Positions 42,568 through 47,142 of a DNA stretch of 64,000 nucleotides are shown piece by piece (position 1 is the stretch's first letter; every line of letters begins with the position of its first letter). Source of the DNA: Candidatus Methylomirabilis sp. GTDB lineage: Bacteria; Muiribacteriota; Ozemobacteria; Ozemobacterales; Ozemobacteraceae. The notes under the pieces were generated by a model. The model saw nothing but the letters and a program-made list of their open reading frames with translations. It was not told where the DNA came from and made no database searches. The DNA lies in NCBI GenBank assembly GCA_020722725.1, contig DYKG01000008.1, forward strand, positions 30,836 to 94,835, given 5' to 3'. The translations under genes and the position numbers were made by a program.

Positions 42568-45500
42568 TCAGAATTTTTTCATCGAGATAAGAGATTCGTC
42601 GGTGAGAATTTCGTCTTTGAGAGGACAATCGTGCAGATGGTCACAGCTTTTGCAGTACTTGTTTTTTTTGGGCTTGAATTCTTTTTCATGAATCATTGCA
42701 TAGGCTGTTTTATCAATTGACTCAACAACTTTGGGAATATCATCACGCGTGCGGGTCGTTTCAACCTTGCAGTCATGATCAAGCATCAGCAATGATAGTT
42801 TGCTGATTTTCAAACCAAAAGTATCTTCACAGGCCCAGTAATAGATGCTCAGCTGCTTATCAGCATCTACCGCTTCCTGACTACGCATTGTCGGTTCGGT
42901 CTTGTAATCGAGAATTTCGCAGGTACCGTCTTCGAGCTTGTCGATGCGGTCGATGAAACCGGTCATCACTGCATATTTGCCACACGGGATCTCGAAATAC
43001 TCCTCAATCGAATAGGCTGGCCTGAAATCACAATCCCTGATGAACCGATTATAATACATGGTTATCTGGCGAATTCCATCCTGGCGGTATTGTTGTTCGA
43101 TTGCGTCTGAATCAAAACCTTCGCGGTGGGTCAGGCGAACTTCATCGTAAATTCGCAGCACTTCTTCGAGGCTTGGCTTGGGAATCGGGTTTCTTGGATC
43201 GTAAACCCGCTCGAAAGTCTCATGTATTGTTGTGCCGAAGCTGAAAAATGGTTGCGGCTTGGGCGGGACTTTGTCAATATAAAGCTTGCGGTAAGATCGT
43301 GGACAGTTCAGATACAGACTCATTTTTGAATAACTTAATCTGATGCGCTGCCTGAACTGTTCCTGGGTTTCGCCGACCATTTCATGGGGCTTGACTTTCC
43401 ATTCCGGGCAGGGTCCATAAAATTCGCACCAGGCGCAGAGCGACCCTTTGTTCGGCTCAAATTCGTTTTTATTAATCAGTTCAACCAGTTCTGCTGTTTT
43501 GATTTTATGAGCTTTTATGTCATCTTCTGATGGGTCAAGGCTGTAGCGCCTATTATTTGAAAGGTAATGATACGAAACCCTGGCAATTCTTCCCGGCCAT
43601 TTCTGATTGGCAGCGAGAAACATGTTCAGCAGGCTGGAGTCTTCGTTGAGTACGCGCTCATCGGGAACTTTCCTGCCAGTTTTGTAATCGATTATCTCAA
43701 GCTTGCCATCAGGCAGTTCATCCACCCGATCAATCTGAACCACTGTGTCAATTCCGTTCCAGTTCCAGCGTGCTGAAACTTCAAACATGATCGGTTTTTC
43801 ATTGCCGGTCAAAGATTTGAAATAATCTTCTAAAAATATATTTGCCCTCACCTTGAATCGTTCTTCTTCTTCAGAGTCTGCATATCCGTCACGAATCCAA
43901 TATTTATTTAAAATCTGGCGAAATGGGTTCTTTTTGAATTGTTTCGCATTGTAGTTCTCGTGAAATTCCCGCAAAGCAAAGTGAATCGAACGATCGAAGC
44001 TGAGATTTGGTGTGGGGCGAGCTTCTTTGGGAACCCGGTCAATGTATTTCATCTGATATTTCAACGGACAGCTCTGAAAGCAGCTGATTTTCGAAGGTGA
44101 AAGAAGCATGGTTTTTGCGTCTTCACAAATTTCCAGGTAATCGCAGTAACTGCATAGCGGATTGCGCTGACCTTCAAATTCGCCGGCGGCATTTTCTGCA
44201 AGAAACTCTTCGATGCTGAGTTTAAGCCTTTCTAGATCCTGCTGTGACGGCGTAAACGGCACCACGTCTCCGGTCAACAGGTAATGATATGACAGCTTTT
44301 CGACCCGCCCGGGGTACAGGCGGTCGGCGATAAACCAGTTATAAACCCCGCTCAGGTCAAGCCGGGCCTCATGGGGTGTCAGCGCTTTTTTGCCGGTTTT
44401 GTAAATAACCACATGCAGATTGCCGTTGGGCAGAATGTCGATGCGATCGAATCGCGTTGTCAGAATAACATCTTCATAAGGCAGTCGAACCGACTCGCCG
44501 AGGGTGTGAATTTTCGGCAACCCTCCTTTATTCAGTTGAGTGAAGTTGATGAAAGCCTTGTAAGCCTTTTCCATGACCTCTTTGCGACCAGATTCGCTGA
44601 GCTGGTCGGAAGGGGGCAGCGTGGCCGCCGCTTTTTCGAGCAGGCTGGTTGCGTCTTCCAGTTTGCCGGCAGCAACTGTTGTCTGAAGAACGCTCTGCAG
44701 GGTCTGATACAGAACCTGTGCCGGTTTTTCGCTGTCAGGAACCGGTGCTTTGTCAATGTAGCGAAACCGGTAGCGTTTCGGGCAATCACGCATGGTCTGA
44801 AGCTTGGACATCGAGATCGTCGTTTTGCGCGAGGTGCAACCCACTGCGGCCGCACAGGTCGAACAGACCGGCCCGCCCAGCGGTTCAAAGTTTTTGGCTT
44901 TGATCTGCTCACCAACCGAGTTAAGCAACTGATTGCCTTTTCTGATCATCATTTCATCAATGTCAATTTCAATTTTCTCGCCGTGGCGCAGATAAAGGAA
45001 GGCGAATTTTTTTACCCGGCCGGGAAAAACTGCTTCGGCGGCCGCACAGATTGCTGCGATAACCGGATCATTGCGCAGCTCATTCTCTGAATTGATGCGC
45101 CGCCCGGTTTTGTAATCGATCAGGGTAAGGTTGCCGGAACTGTCAGCATCAATGCGGTCTATGGTGGCCTGAAAGCGGAACTTGCCGGTTTCAAATTCGA
45201 TGAATTCGTTGGTTTTCCAGGTTTTTGACTGTGGGAACAGCCTGGTCAGATAGCTTTGCAGCATTTCACGACCGAGGTTTTTCATCTCGTCAGTCATTTC
45301 TTCCGGCAGGTCTTTTCCCACAGCTTTAAAGAATTTCGAATAAACGAATGATTCTGCGGTTAGATTTGGCGAGGGCAGGTAATCGCGATGAAGGGCGGCA
45401 AGGGCCTCGTGAATCGGTCTGTCGATGGCAAGATCGATAGATGGAATCTCGTCGAAATTGCGCTCGGTTTTCTTGACATAATACGCCTCGTATTTGTGCG

Positions 45501-46434
45501 GACAATCAAGAAAAGTCTTAAGTTTCGAAGAATTAAGAGTTGGAATCTGCCCAACCGGGCACATATCCCGGTAATCACAGTAATTGCAGGCTGAAGATCT
45601 GATCGGGTTGAATTGGCCCTGGTATATTTTCTCGCAGAGATCAAGGTAACGTTTCTGTGCCAATGCTAATTCAGACGGATTGCGCATCACGGTCAATGTT
45701 TCATTTTCATTCAAATATATGAATGAAATCTTTTTGACTTTTCCCGGCCAGATACATTCTGTGGCGTGAAAAAGAAGCTGAACTGTCAGGCTTTGTTCCA
45801 GCTCAGTTACACCACCGATTGGTAATTTGCCGGTTTTATAATCGATCAGTTCAAGAGAACCATCAGGTAAGCGGTCAACCCGGTCGATTTTGCCTGAGTA
45901 TTCGCCACCGAACATATCGACTTTGAAAAAATAATCTGTTTCAACGTGGCGCGATGGCACCCGGCAGAATTTTTCAAAATAGTTTTTCATCGCAGCGGTG
46001 GCCAGGTTTTTGAAGTTCAACTCTTCTTCAGGGTTCTGATAGCCTTTTTTGTCCCAGTTTTTTATCAGACTTTGGGCGAGCTGCTCAATTTTAAACGGTT
46101 CGCCTGGTTTATAACCCCGGTAAAAATCGCGCAGTGCTGCATGCAAAGACTGGTCGCAGCTTAAATTAGCGCCGGGGGCATTGCCTTTTCGAACTTTACT
46201 GATATGGGTAAAATGGAATTTTTTGGGGCAGGTCTGGTAAAGGTCTATCTTGCTGCCGCTTAATGGAACTTTGATCTTGGCTGAACCCTTTTCGGGAGCC
46301 TTGTCTTTGTTTGGGGCGGTGGTGGATGGTCTGGCCGCTTGTGTCTTCTTTTCTTCTTTATTGTACTGCTGCTTCTTAAGATTGTCTTTGGTTAAGCGAA
46401 ACAGTCGCGAAAGAAGGTCGGGCTTGTCAGCCAT
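42568..46434 (-). CDS. Five-module Fe-S PD-(D/E)XK (RecB/Cas4/AddB-like) nuclease protein
   Basis: 1288 residues. After a basic 50-residue N-terminus there are five successive copies of one domain, at about 55-293, 300-535, 540-770, 775-1012 and 1030-1272. Each begins with S-K-[LIM]-x(4-6)-C-P-x-[KR]-[YF] and has IDR[IV]D, then [IL]DYKTG, and ends C-x2-C-x5-C. Thus each has an Asp...Asp-x-Lys nuclease site and four Cys as in Cas4/AddB iron-sulfur nucleases. Asp/Asp/Lys are 184/198/200, 426/440/442, 902/916/918 and 1162/1176/1178. Module 3 has 663/Ile677/679 and lacks the upstream His, so it is probably inactive. Cys sets are 69/283/286/292, 311/524/527/533, 551/761/764/770, 789/1000/1003/1009 and 1044/1261/1264/1270. 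It lies 114 bp downstream of a RecQ stump on the same strand, suggesting a DNA-end processing role. Confidence 0.9.
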   Translation of the reverse strand: MADKPDLLSRLFRLTKDNLKKQQYNKEEKKTQAARPSTTAPNKDKAPEKGSAKIKVPLSGSKIDLYQTCPKKFHFTHISKVRKGNAPGANLSCDQSLHAALRDFYRGYKPGEPFKIEQLAQSLIKNWDKKGYQNPEEELNFKNLATAAMKNYFEKFCRVPSRHVETDYFFKVDMFGGEYSGKIDRVDRLPDGSLELIDYKTGKLPIGGVTELEQSLTVQLLFHATECIWPGKVKKISFIYLNENETLTVMRNPSELALAQKRYLDLCEKIYQGQFNPIRSSACNYCDYRDMCPVGQIPTLNSSKLKTFLDCPHKYEAYYVKKTERNFDEIPSIDLAIDRPIHEALAALHRDYLPSPNLTAESFVYSKFFKAVGKDLPEEMTDEMKNLGREMLQSYLTRLFPQSKTWKTNEFIEFETGKFRFQATIDRIDADSSGNLTLIDYKTGRRINSENELRNDPVIAAICAAAEAVFPGRVKKFAFLYLRHGEKIEIDIDEMMIRKGNQLLNSVGEQIKAKNFEPLGGPVCSTCAAAVGCTSRKTTISMSKLQTMRDCPKRYRFRYIDKAPVPDSEKPAQVLYQTLQSVLQTTVAAGKLEDATSLLEKAAATLPPSDQLSESGRKEVMEKAYKAFINFTQLNKGGLPKIHTLGESVRLPYEDVILTTRFDRIDILPNGNLHVVIYKTGKKALTPHEARLDLSGVYNWFIADRLYPGRVEKLSYHYLLTGDVVPFTPSQQDLERLKLSIEEFLAENAAGEFEGQRNPLCSYCDYLEICEDAKTMLLSPSKISCFQSCPLKYQMKYIDRVPKEARPTPNLSFDRSIHFALREFHENYNAKQFKKNPFRQILNKYWIRDGYADSEEEERFKVRANIFLEDYFKSLTGNEKPIMFEVSARWNWNGIDTVVQIDRVDELPDGKLEIIDYKTGRKVPDERVLNEDSSLLNMFLAANQKWPGRIARVSYHYLSNNRRYSLDPSEDDIKAHKIKTAELVELINKNEFEPNKGSLCAWCEFYGPCPEWKVKPHEMVGETQEQFRQRIRLSYSKMSLYLNCPRSYRKLYIDKVPPKPQPFFSFGTTIHETFERVYDPRNPIPKPSLEEVLRIYDEVRLTHREGFDSDAIEQQYRQDGIRQITMYYNRFIRDCDFRPAYSIEEYFEIPCGKYAVMTGFIDRIDKLEDGTCEILDYKTEPTMRSQEAVDADKQLSIYYWACEDTFGLKISKLSLLMLDHDCKVETTRTRDDIPKVVESIDKTAYAMIHEKEFKPKKNKYCKSCDHLHDCPLKDEILTDESLISMKKF

Positions 46435-46548
46435 TCCATACTCCTTGAATTTTTTTTGTAATTATAACCCAGCTGGCAAAAATTCACAAAAATTAGAAAA
46501 TTTAAAGGCATTTACAGGACAATTTTCTTTATCATGCCAATCGGCGGT

Positions 46549-46947
46549 CTATTCTTTGAAGGTTTCGGCTGCCTCTTCTGGAGTCGAGCCCGCGATGACT
46601 TTAAGAAAAACTTCACCATAGCGGTCACGCTTGTGTTCGCCGATTCCTTTGATCTCACAAAGCTCATCGAGTTTCTCGGGCTTGATGGTTGTCAGCGACA
46701 TCAGAACCGAATCGGCAAAAATCATGTAGGGTGGCAGACCCATGCGTCTTGCCAGCAGCAGGCGAAGTTTTCGCAGGTTTTCAAACAGGGTTGGGTTTTC
46801 GACGTTTTCGGCTGATGCTTTCTTTCTGCGGGTCTTTGACGCAAGCGGCCTGGAAACCGGGTGCCCAAGTCTGATTCGCGCTTCCCCCCGGCAGACTTTC
46901 AGACCCTCGGCTGTGTGTTTGAGCATGGGGTATTCACCATCGGTCAC
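46549..46947 (-). pseudogene. C-terminal remnant of a RecQ helicase (end of RQC plus HRDC domain)
   Basis: 132 codons. GEYPMLKHTAEGLKVCRGE is the last part of an RQC domain. ENPTLFENLRKLRLLLARRMGLPPYMIFADSVLMSLTTIKP with LCEIKGIGEHKRDRYGEVFL is a full HRDC domain. The helicase core (about 450 residues) is absent. The upstream sequence switches at about 46950 to a receiver-domain fragment on the other strand, so a rearrangement removed the 5' part. An independent HRDC gene is possible but unlikely given the split RQC. The intact ancestor probably formed an operon with the multi-nuclease gene downstream. Confidence 0.75.
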
Positions 46948-46950
46948 CGC

Positions 46951-47142
46951 CAGAGAGAGGCGGCTGAAAAGATTCTGTCCATTCTTCCTGATGCCAGTAT
47001 TGTGGTGGCGAGCGGTTATTCCCAGGATCTTGTTCTGACAAATTTTTCCGACTTCGGGTTTCAGGGAGCCCTTTCAAAGCCTTTCGGTCTGGCCAGGCTA
47101 AAAGATTTGATCGATACAGTTTTAGGCAGGGGTATTGATTGA
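46951..47142 (+). pseudogene. C-terminal remnant of a response-regulator receiver domain
   Basis: The frame AAEKILSILPDASIVVASGYSQDLV...DFGFQGALSKPFGLARLKDLIDTVLG matches the last two-thirds of a REC domain. It has the Ser in ASGYS and the Lys in LSKPF, and is of the kind attached to hybrid kinases. The phospho-acceptor Asp part and everything upstream are missing. Upstream in the same frame lies antisense recQ sequence. It ends normally with a stop at 47140-47142. Confidence 0.7.

Follow-up and report, generated by a model that had tools for sequence, protein, structure and literature searches.

A 1288-residue protein of Ozemobacteraceae with five tandem PD-(D/E)XK modules and a full catalytic motif set in the last

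Five modules in one polypeptide

The window analysed here, a 64,000-nucleotide stretch of contig DYKG01000008.1 from an Ozemobacteraceae genome (assembly GCA_020722725.1, deposited as Candidatus Methylomirabilis sp.), carries on its reverse strand a gene for a protein built of five nuclease-like modules. The complete open reading frame (ORF; 42568..46434) begins with ATG and runs for 1288 codons (1288 residues), and the frame is intact in eight genomes, the window's own included. The match to the Pfam family PF12705 extends over five separate stretches of the protein (E 5.9e-124; 413 bits, the cut-off being 22) and scores best in module 5. When the source genome was searched, every module singly exceeded the cut-off (70–104 bits). 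Matches to the NCBIfam models of AddA, AddB and RexB are all below their cut-offs. Queried against PDB sequences, the full-length chain gave a single match, too weak to be of use (E 0.2).

Module boundaries were taken from a module hidden Markov model built in this analysis, and all the features that follow lie on the reverse strand. After an N-terminal extension (residues 1–56; 46267..46434), module 1 (residues 57–293; 45556..46266) presents H98, D184 and D198-x-K200, with cysteines at 69, 283, 286 and 292. The same elements are found in module 2 (residues 299–533; 44836..45540) as H342, D426, D440-x-K442 and cysteines 311, 524, 527 and 533, and in module 4 (residues 777–1010; 43405..44106) as H818, D902, D916-x-K918 and cysteines 789, 1000, 1003 and 1009. 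In module 3 (residues 539–770; 44125..44820; cysteines 551, 761, 764 and 770) the motif-I histidine is replaced by Q580 and the aspartate of DxK by I677. None of these four modules contains a QhXXY motif. A linker (residues 1011–1031; 43342..43404), in which W1012, K1015, P1016, E1022 and R1030 do not vary over 41 rows drawn from proteins with five, four or three modules, leads into module 5 (residues 1032–1271; 42622..43341), where H1071, D1162, D1176-x-K1178, Q1194 and Y1198 form the sole full catalytic set and the cysteines are 1044, 1261, 1264 and 1270.

The five modules share 21–33% pairwise identity and recur as the same five in 36 aligned proteins, on which grounds an assembly artefact or chance repeat was rejected. 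A first-pass annotation of the window had proposed five RecB/AddB/Cas4-type modules in one chain with no fused helicase; both points are borne out, the module limits agreeing to within a few residues and no Pfam helicase family matching the 1288-residue protein. Its five four-cysteine sets, for which it considered up to five clusters possible, are likewise complete in sequence, each module having a single cysteine close to its beginning and a terminal C-x2-C-x5-C. The catalytic strands that it placed in every module are there in part: DR[IV]D occurs in all five, and the DYKTG-type strand fails in module 3, which reads VIYKTG.

Catalytic motifs, cysteines and constraint

The catalytic motifs were compared in 36 rows, comprising the window protein and 35 five-module homologues (the fragments P0025 and P0035 and the entries from P0038 onwards were left out). 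Motif II was taken as the first aspartate of DR[IV]D; counting the second gives the same numbers. Going from module 1 to module 5, His, Asp and [DE]xK are complete together in 34, 34, 3, 36 and 36 rows, and with QhXXY added the counts become 0, 0, 0, 0 and 36. Both the glutamine and the tyrosine of the module 5 motif (Q1194-Y1198, QLSIYY; 42841..42855) are present in 36/36. In the window protein itself H-D-DxK is complete in modules 1, 2, 4 and 5; module 3, where the motif-I histidine and the DxK aspartate have gone in most rows, is degenerate in 33/36. The earlier statement that four sites look intact is thus reduced to one module with the whole set. Only module 5 is of the RecB/AddB/Cas4 working-site type, with motifs I, II and III and QhXXY together. 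Misalignment of the QhXXY columns is unlikely, since in all five modules the compared positions (T217, V458, S695, S934 and Q1194) lie at residue one or two of the equivalent helix in the models. According to sections of PMC4176176, alanine substitutions in motif II, motif III or QhXXY leave the Cas4 proteins Pcal_0546 and SSO1391 almost inactive. Our inference from the sequences is that module 5 does the cutting and that modules 1–4 would be inactive or nearly so.

These counts bear directly on the idea that modules 1, 2, 4 and 5 all cut, another residue replacing QhXXY in modules 1, 2 and 4, so that several nicks are made per binding event. Such a multi-site nuclease would account for the metal-ligand motifs being complete in 34, 34 and 36 of the rows for these three modules, and in 32/36 rows module 1 has a glutamine two residues past the motif position. 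Furthermore, multi-module proteins from outside the Riflebacteria clade, for example P0054 and P0121, can have complete motifs in each of their modules. However, a complete QhXXY is missing from each of modules 1–4 in all rows, without it the Cas4 proteins that PMC4176176 describes as tested hardly cut, a glutamine shifted by two would face another side of the helix, and module 3 is degenerate. We consider cutting by four modules somewhat unlikely. Multi-site processive cutting, or cutting at defined spacing, had been raised by the first-pass annotation and is unsupported as a leading idea by the distribution of the four motifs; the annotation's other option, that some modules serve only to bind, is the one that the evidence favours.

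The cluster cysteines are invariant throughout (20/20 in 36/36 rows). With 262 of 1288 columns invariant overall, the probability of including all 20 by drawing columns at random is 8e-15, and none of the remaining 11 cysteines of the protein is invariant. Every module has the iron-staple pattern of one cysteine plus C-x2-C-x5-C, from which an iron–sulfur cluster is predicted in each of the five. It could conceivably be that up to five clusters sense oxidation or DNA-mediated electron flow, with cutting secondary; the invariance of all cluster cysteines while catalytic residues drift would suit a redox array of this kind, but the cysteines of 'iron staple' nucleases may serve merely to staple the fold, as portions of PMC4176176 have it, and we find the redox reading very doubtful.

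Selection was assessed with 28 orthologue pairs from the eight intact frames, of which 25 were saturated or nearly so; the three clearly unsaturated pairs (G005, G012 and G017; pS 0.35–0.53) come from one genus. For these pairs dN/dS is 0.11–0.16, 0.08–0.19, 0.05–0.08, 0.07–0.12 and 0.05–0.07 for modules 1 to 5, indicating that in this genus, the only one measured, all five modules are under purifying selection. Module 3 has lost both the His and the DxK Asp in G005, G012 and G017 alike, and its constraint equals that of module 5. When genera are compared, conservation is highest in module 5, with 113/240 columns invariant in the 36 rows. A decayed gene was rejected on the dN/dS range of 0.05–0.19 in this genus and the lack of any internal stop in the eight orthologous frames.

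Catalytic decay together with purifying selection would also be expected if modules 1–4 bound proteins, delivering module 5 to a partner (the genome's AdnAB-like pair, a polymerase or another repair protein), and did not touch DNA, and the high conservation of the linker between modules 4 and 5 is compatible with such a scaffold. Against this, no neighbour gene is common to all 15 neighbourhoods compared, and modules 1, 2 and 4 keep their metal-ligand motifs; the scaffold is, in our estimation, improbable.

Regions of the predicted models in modules 1–4 match PD-(D/E)XK structures, module 4 by few rows. Module 5 is not among the listed structure matches, and its fold assignment rests on its sequence match to PF12705. 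The expected fold is accordingly seen in the models of most modules, and stapled PD-(D/E)XK folds are predicted for the chain. With the modest pTM of the models, no ring or spiral arrangement of the modules is claimed.

Relatives with one to five modules and the surroundings of the gene

Among the best 120 of 749 homologues, the named close ones are mostly from metagenome assemblies of Candidatus Riflebacteria, Rifleibacteriota or Ozemobacter, with one from Erysipelotrichia. The Erysipelotrichia-named records L041 (SABV01000014.1) and P0011 hold a five-module gene at 70% identity, and the assembly so labelled is probably a mislabelled Riflebacteria genome. In a search of 56 genomes with the protein, a member or a piece of one was found in 18/24 genomes of the same family, the window's own included, and in 0/15 from the phylum's other families, where the best match (E 1.2e-6) was to a frame of 939 codons; the 17 other genomes gave single-module or helicase-size matches in some cases. 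The whole five-module frame without a stop is present in eight genomes of one family. A phage or plasmid origin was rejected: the matching records, 21 of phages and 9 of plasmids, all have less than 60% identity and never cover more than 80% of the query.

A scan of 73 proteins with the module profile (P0054 and P0055, split by the profile, being counted as three and two, and P0025, P0035 and P0039 being fragments) returned from one to five modules per protein; none of those scanned has more than five, and the longest five-module protein has 1323 residues. Of 88 further proteins, 63 have one module by profile, 24 have two and one has three. A tree of the last module was calculated for 64 of the 73 (P0025, P0035, P0039, P0052, P0199, G018, two C61 helicases and G042 were left out), with a root for drawing only and a long-branch warning among the outgroup rows. 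In this tree 11 three-module proteins adjoin the five-module proteins P0036 and P0037 (support 98/92) within a 38-row fork of 100/91, and because of this position five-module forms are their likely ancestors. P0038, with four modules, and P0050, with three, fall in an unresolved fork among five-module rows.

Chimaeric modules were sought in four of the 15 three-module proteins (P0040, P0044, P0050 and P0053), as well as in P0038 and G002, and three of these four, all except P0053, have one. The middle module of P0040 and of P0044 is module 3-like for about 200 residues and then module 4-like, that of P0050 is module 2-like and then module 4-like, and P0038 consists of modules 1, 2, 4 and 5. 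In-frame deletion, through recombination of one module with another, would produce such forms. P0053 (modules 1, 4 and 5) and the two-module protein of G002, whose first module is mixed 1/4, fall outside the five-module fork (93/93) and may show an earlier state of the array.

The whole QhXXY is confined to the last module in the Riflebacteria forms shown. Outside that clade, the two-module proteins shown from P0121–P0128 mostly have it in both modules. The three-module P0054 (842 residues), also outside the clade, has His, DxK and QhXXY in all three modules, its first module lacking the second Asp of DRID, and is a good control for an active array. In P0055 (1118 residues), again from outside, the first module is split before its cysteine triad by some 440 residues, by eye likely helical, and the second is complete. 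Since catalytic residues have been lost from the second module of P0123 and from the first of P0130, a copy has probably been retired on more than one occasion.

Single-module relatives give a match in 38/41 genomes around G051, some with internal stops. One of 259 residues (L056, 8552-9331, reverse strand) stands in a row with genes that read from their translations as coaE-like and polA-like. At L033 (1087-2775, forward strand; G007) a 563-codon frame has one weak Cas4-like module followed by other sequence and adjoins a helicase-like ORF; it is probably a phage-type nuclease outside the five-module family.

No neighbour gene recurs in all 15 neighbourhoods, and a conserved operon was rejected. 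Flanking genes for an M3 peptidase, a rhomboid protein and an ORF of 191–226 residues are shared between the window and three genus g4 loci (L043, L051 and L039), one ORF family recurs on the opposite side of the gene in L043, L046, L038 and the L053 locus of G001, and four loci have an amylase-like ORF somewhat further away. At L044 the nuclease gene was hidden by an overlapping frame during ORF picking. Of the two helicase families searched, PF00580 (UvrD-type) and PF00271 (Helicase_C), neither has a member within 5 kb in 11/12 genomes among the matches listed, a search that reaches only as far as the contigs do (5.6–11.6 kb in G001, G005 and G015). In the twelfth genome, G002, with the two-module form, the divergent neighbour is a Helicase_C protein of about 960 residues (L049, 10621-13509, forward strand). 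The source genome has a separate UvrD-PDDEXK (AdnAB-like) pair of 1074 and 1035 residues on contig C61, which makes a missing AddB subunit an unlikely identity for the five-module protein.

An assignment as a CRISPR Cas4 or other defence nuclease is suggested by the NCBIfam model TIGR00372 (100 bits against a cut-off of 65, a whole-protein score over three stretches; 42571-46434, reverse strand) and by the Cas4 models of PADLOC, which also match. Yet the 91%-complete genome has no match to Cas1 (the search covered Cas1, not Cas2), and Pfam- and NCBIfam-type scans of the 14 other window proteins, to which PADLOC was not applied, returned no cas family. The protein also has five modules instead of one, and is a gene of its own in several genera. 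A Cas4 or defence role appears next to negligible in probability, and automatic naming as Cas4 would mislead.

A promoter-like site, TTGTGA-17-TATAAT (46461..46489, reverse strand), precedes the gene; it is a consensus match only, with 10 such sites in the window against 5.5 expected. TATAAT can be read by eye at a similar place upstream of 8/8 orthologues, and the TTG-spacer-TATAAT pattern in 5/8. SOS control was rejected, as neither CTGT-N8-ACAG nor GAAC-N4-GTTC occurs within 200 bases upstream in any of the eight. Just upstream of the gene lies a 132-residue ORF (46549-46947, reverse strand) that encodes an HRDC domain (E 2.4e-19). This ORF has the look of a recQ remnant, as the HRDC domain stands alone, the start of the ORF resembles, by eye, what we take to be the end of a RecQ RQC domain, and the source genome has no RQC match. 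It is overlapped on the other strand by an ORF with a weak match to a response-regulator tail (46861-47142, forward strand; E 0.042), and the stretch looks like the junction of two decayed genes.

A possible division of labour and its relation to known nucleases

We infer, with a probability of about one half, that modules 1–4 hold the DNA strand and pass it to module 5, the one cutting module, and each functional step is stated here conditionally. Clusters would assemble in the modules; modules 1–4, each with its predicted iron–sulfur cluster, would bind and thread the strand toward module 5 by analogy with RecC; and module 5, at the C-terminus, would cut DNA, single-stranded if the analogy with Cas4 applies. 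In the cell the protein may serve in DNA-end or flap processing beside the separate UvrD-PDDEXK pair. Possible, and put forward only tentatively, is a fuller picture of a single-chain threading nuclease, in which successive duplications of a single iron–sulfur exonuclease domain gave rise to a covalent track of four retired, cluster-stapled DNA hoops and, at its end, one live blade. The number of hoops would be tuned by recombination between modules (from five to four or three in some lineages), setting the length of strand held per cut, and no motor would be needed.

Several observations weigh against this division of labour. Their metal-ligand motifs, retained in modules 1, 2 and 4 in 34–36 of 36 rows, would be odd in modules that never cut. 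QhXXY may not be absolute, since the single-module relative G042 is without the Gln and keeps the Tyr. Cysteine conservation alone does not show a role with DNA, because Pcal_0546 and SSO1391 still cut after cluster loss, as reported in part of PMC4176176. In addition, overall model confidence is modest (pTM 0.53 and 0.62), modules 2, 3 and 5 have isoelectric points of 5.9–6.4 with no sign of a basic DNA track, and no adjoining gene points to a pathway.

One close likeness is to the C-terminal nuclease-like domain of RecC in RecBCD, a PD-(D/E)XK domain which, in the sections of PMC1185551 that treat it, has lost catalysis, is kept for DNA handling beside the active copy in RecB and forms a hoop for single-stranded DNA. 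RecC differs in having one dead domain within a helicase complex and no tandem array, and the likeness is drawn without a residue-by-residue comparison. An inactivated Cas4-type nuclease is reused for a structural role in the nucleocapsid protein TP1 of TTV1; there, as far as the text of PMC4625639 extends on this point, the viral gene is split and the cluster lost, whereas the window protein keeps its cluster residues best. Two PD-(D/E)XK domains in one chain, both seemingly necessary, are described for Wolbachia CinB, although they belong to another subfamily and the relevant parts of PMC8787490 mention no iron–sulfur cysteines.

Among the enzymes of its own type, AdnAB and AddAB carry their nuclease module behind an SF1 helicase, unlike the window protein with its five modules and no helicase. 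Cas4 (SSO0001 and Pcal_0546) and ACE1 have one module per chain, in contrast to five joined modules of which four are degenerate, and the single module of Cas4 is short, 171–362 residues in portions of PMC4176176, against 1288 here. The two-module proteins P0121–P0130 (10/10 with two modules) and P0206–P0229 (23/24) resemble it in having the same stapled module in tandem without a helicase, but have only two, with full motifs in both for most of the P0121–P0128 members shown. Their records are named RecB family exonuclease or PD-(D/E)XK nuclease family protein, some being from Endomicrobia, and those placed in the tree lie mostly outside the Riflebacteria clade, with P0130 at its edge; the two-module proteins are probable deeper relatives. 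A phylogenomic study of Cas4 covers pfam12705 proteins and describes helicase fusions, and the passages of PMC5704561 concerned mention no tandem modules. No description of a five-module iron–sulfur nuclease was found in the open-licence literature searched, in keeping with the first-pass annotation, which knew of no characterised protein of this kind. To our knowledge, a whole enzyme domain repeated five times with all but one copy retired is unusual for a nuclease.

With members of one, two, three, four and five modules, the relatives provide a natural series for comparing one and the same module in its roles as enzyme and as structural part, and the tree suggests that module number falls as well as rises. 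If the four front modules do hold DNA, the protein would represent a helicase-free way to processive cutting. The iron–sulfur staples would then have outlasted catalysis, which would bear on the purpose of the cluster in AddAB, Dna2 and Cas4.

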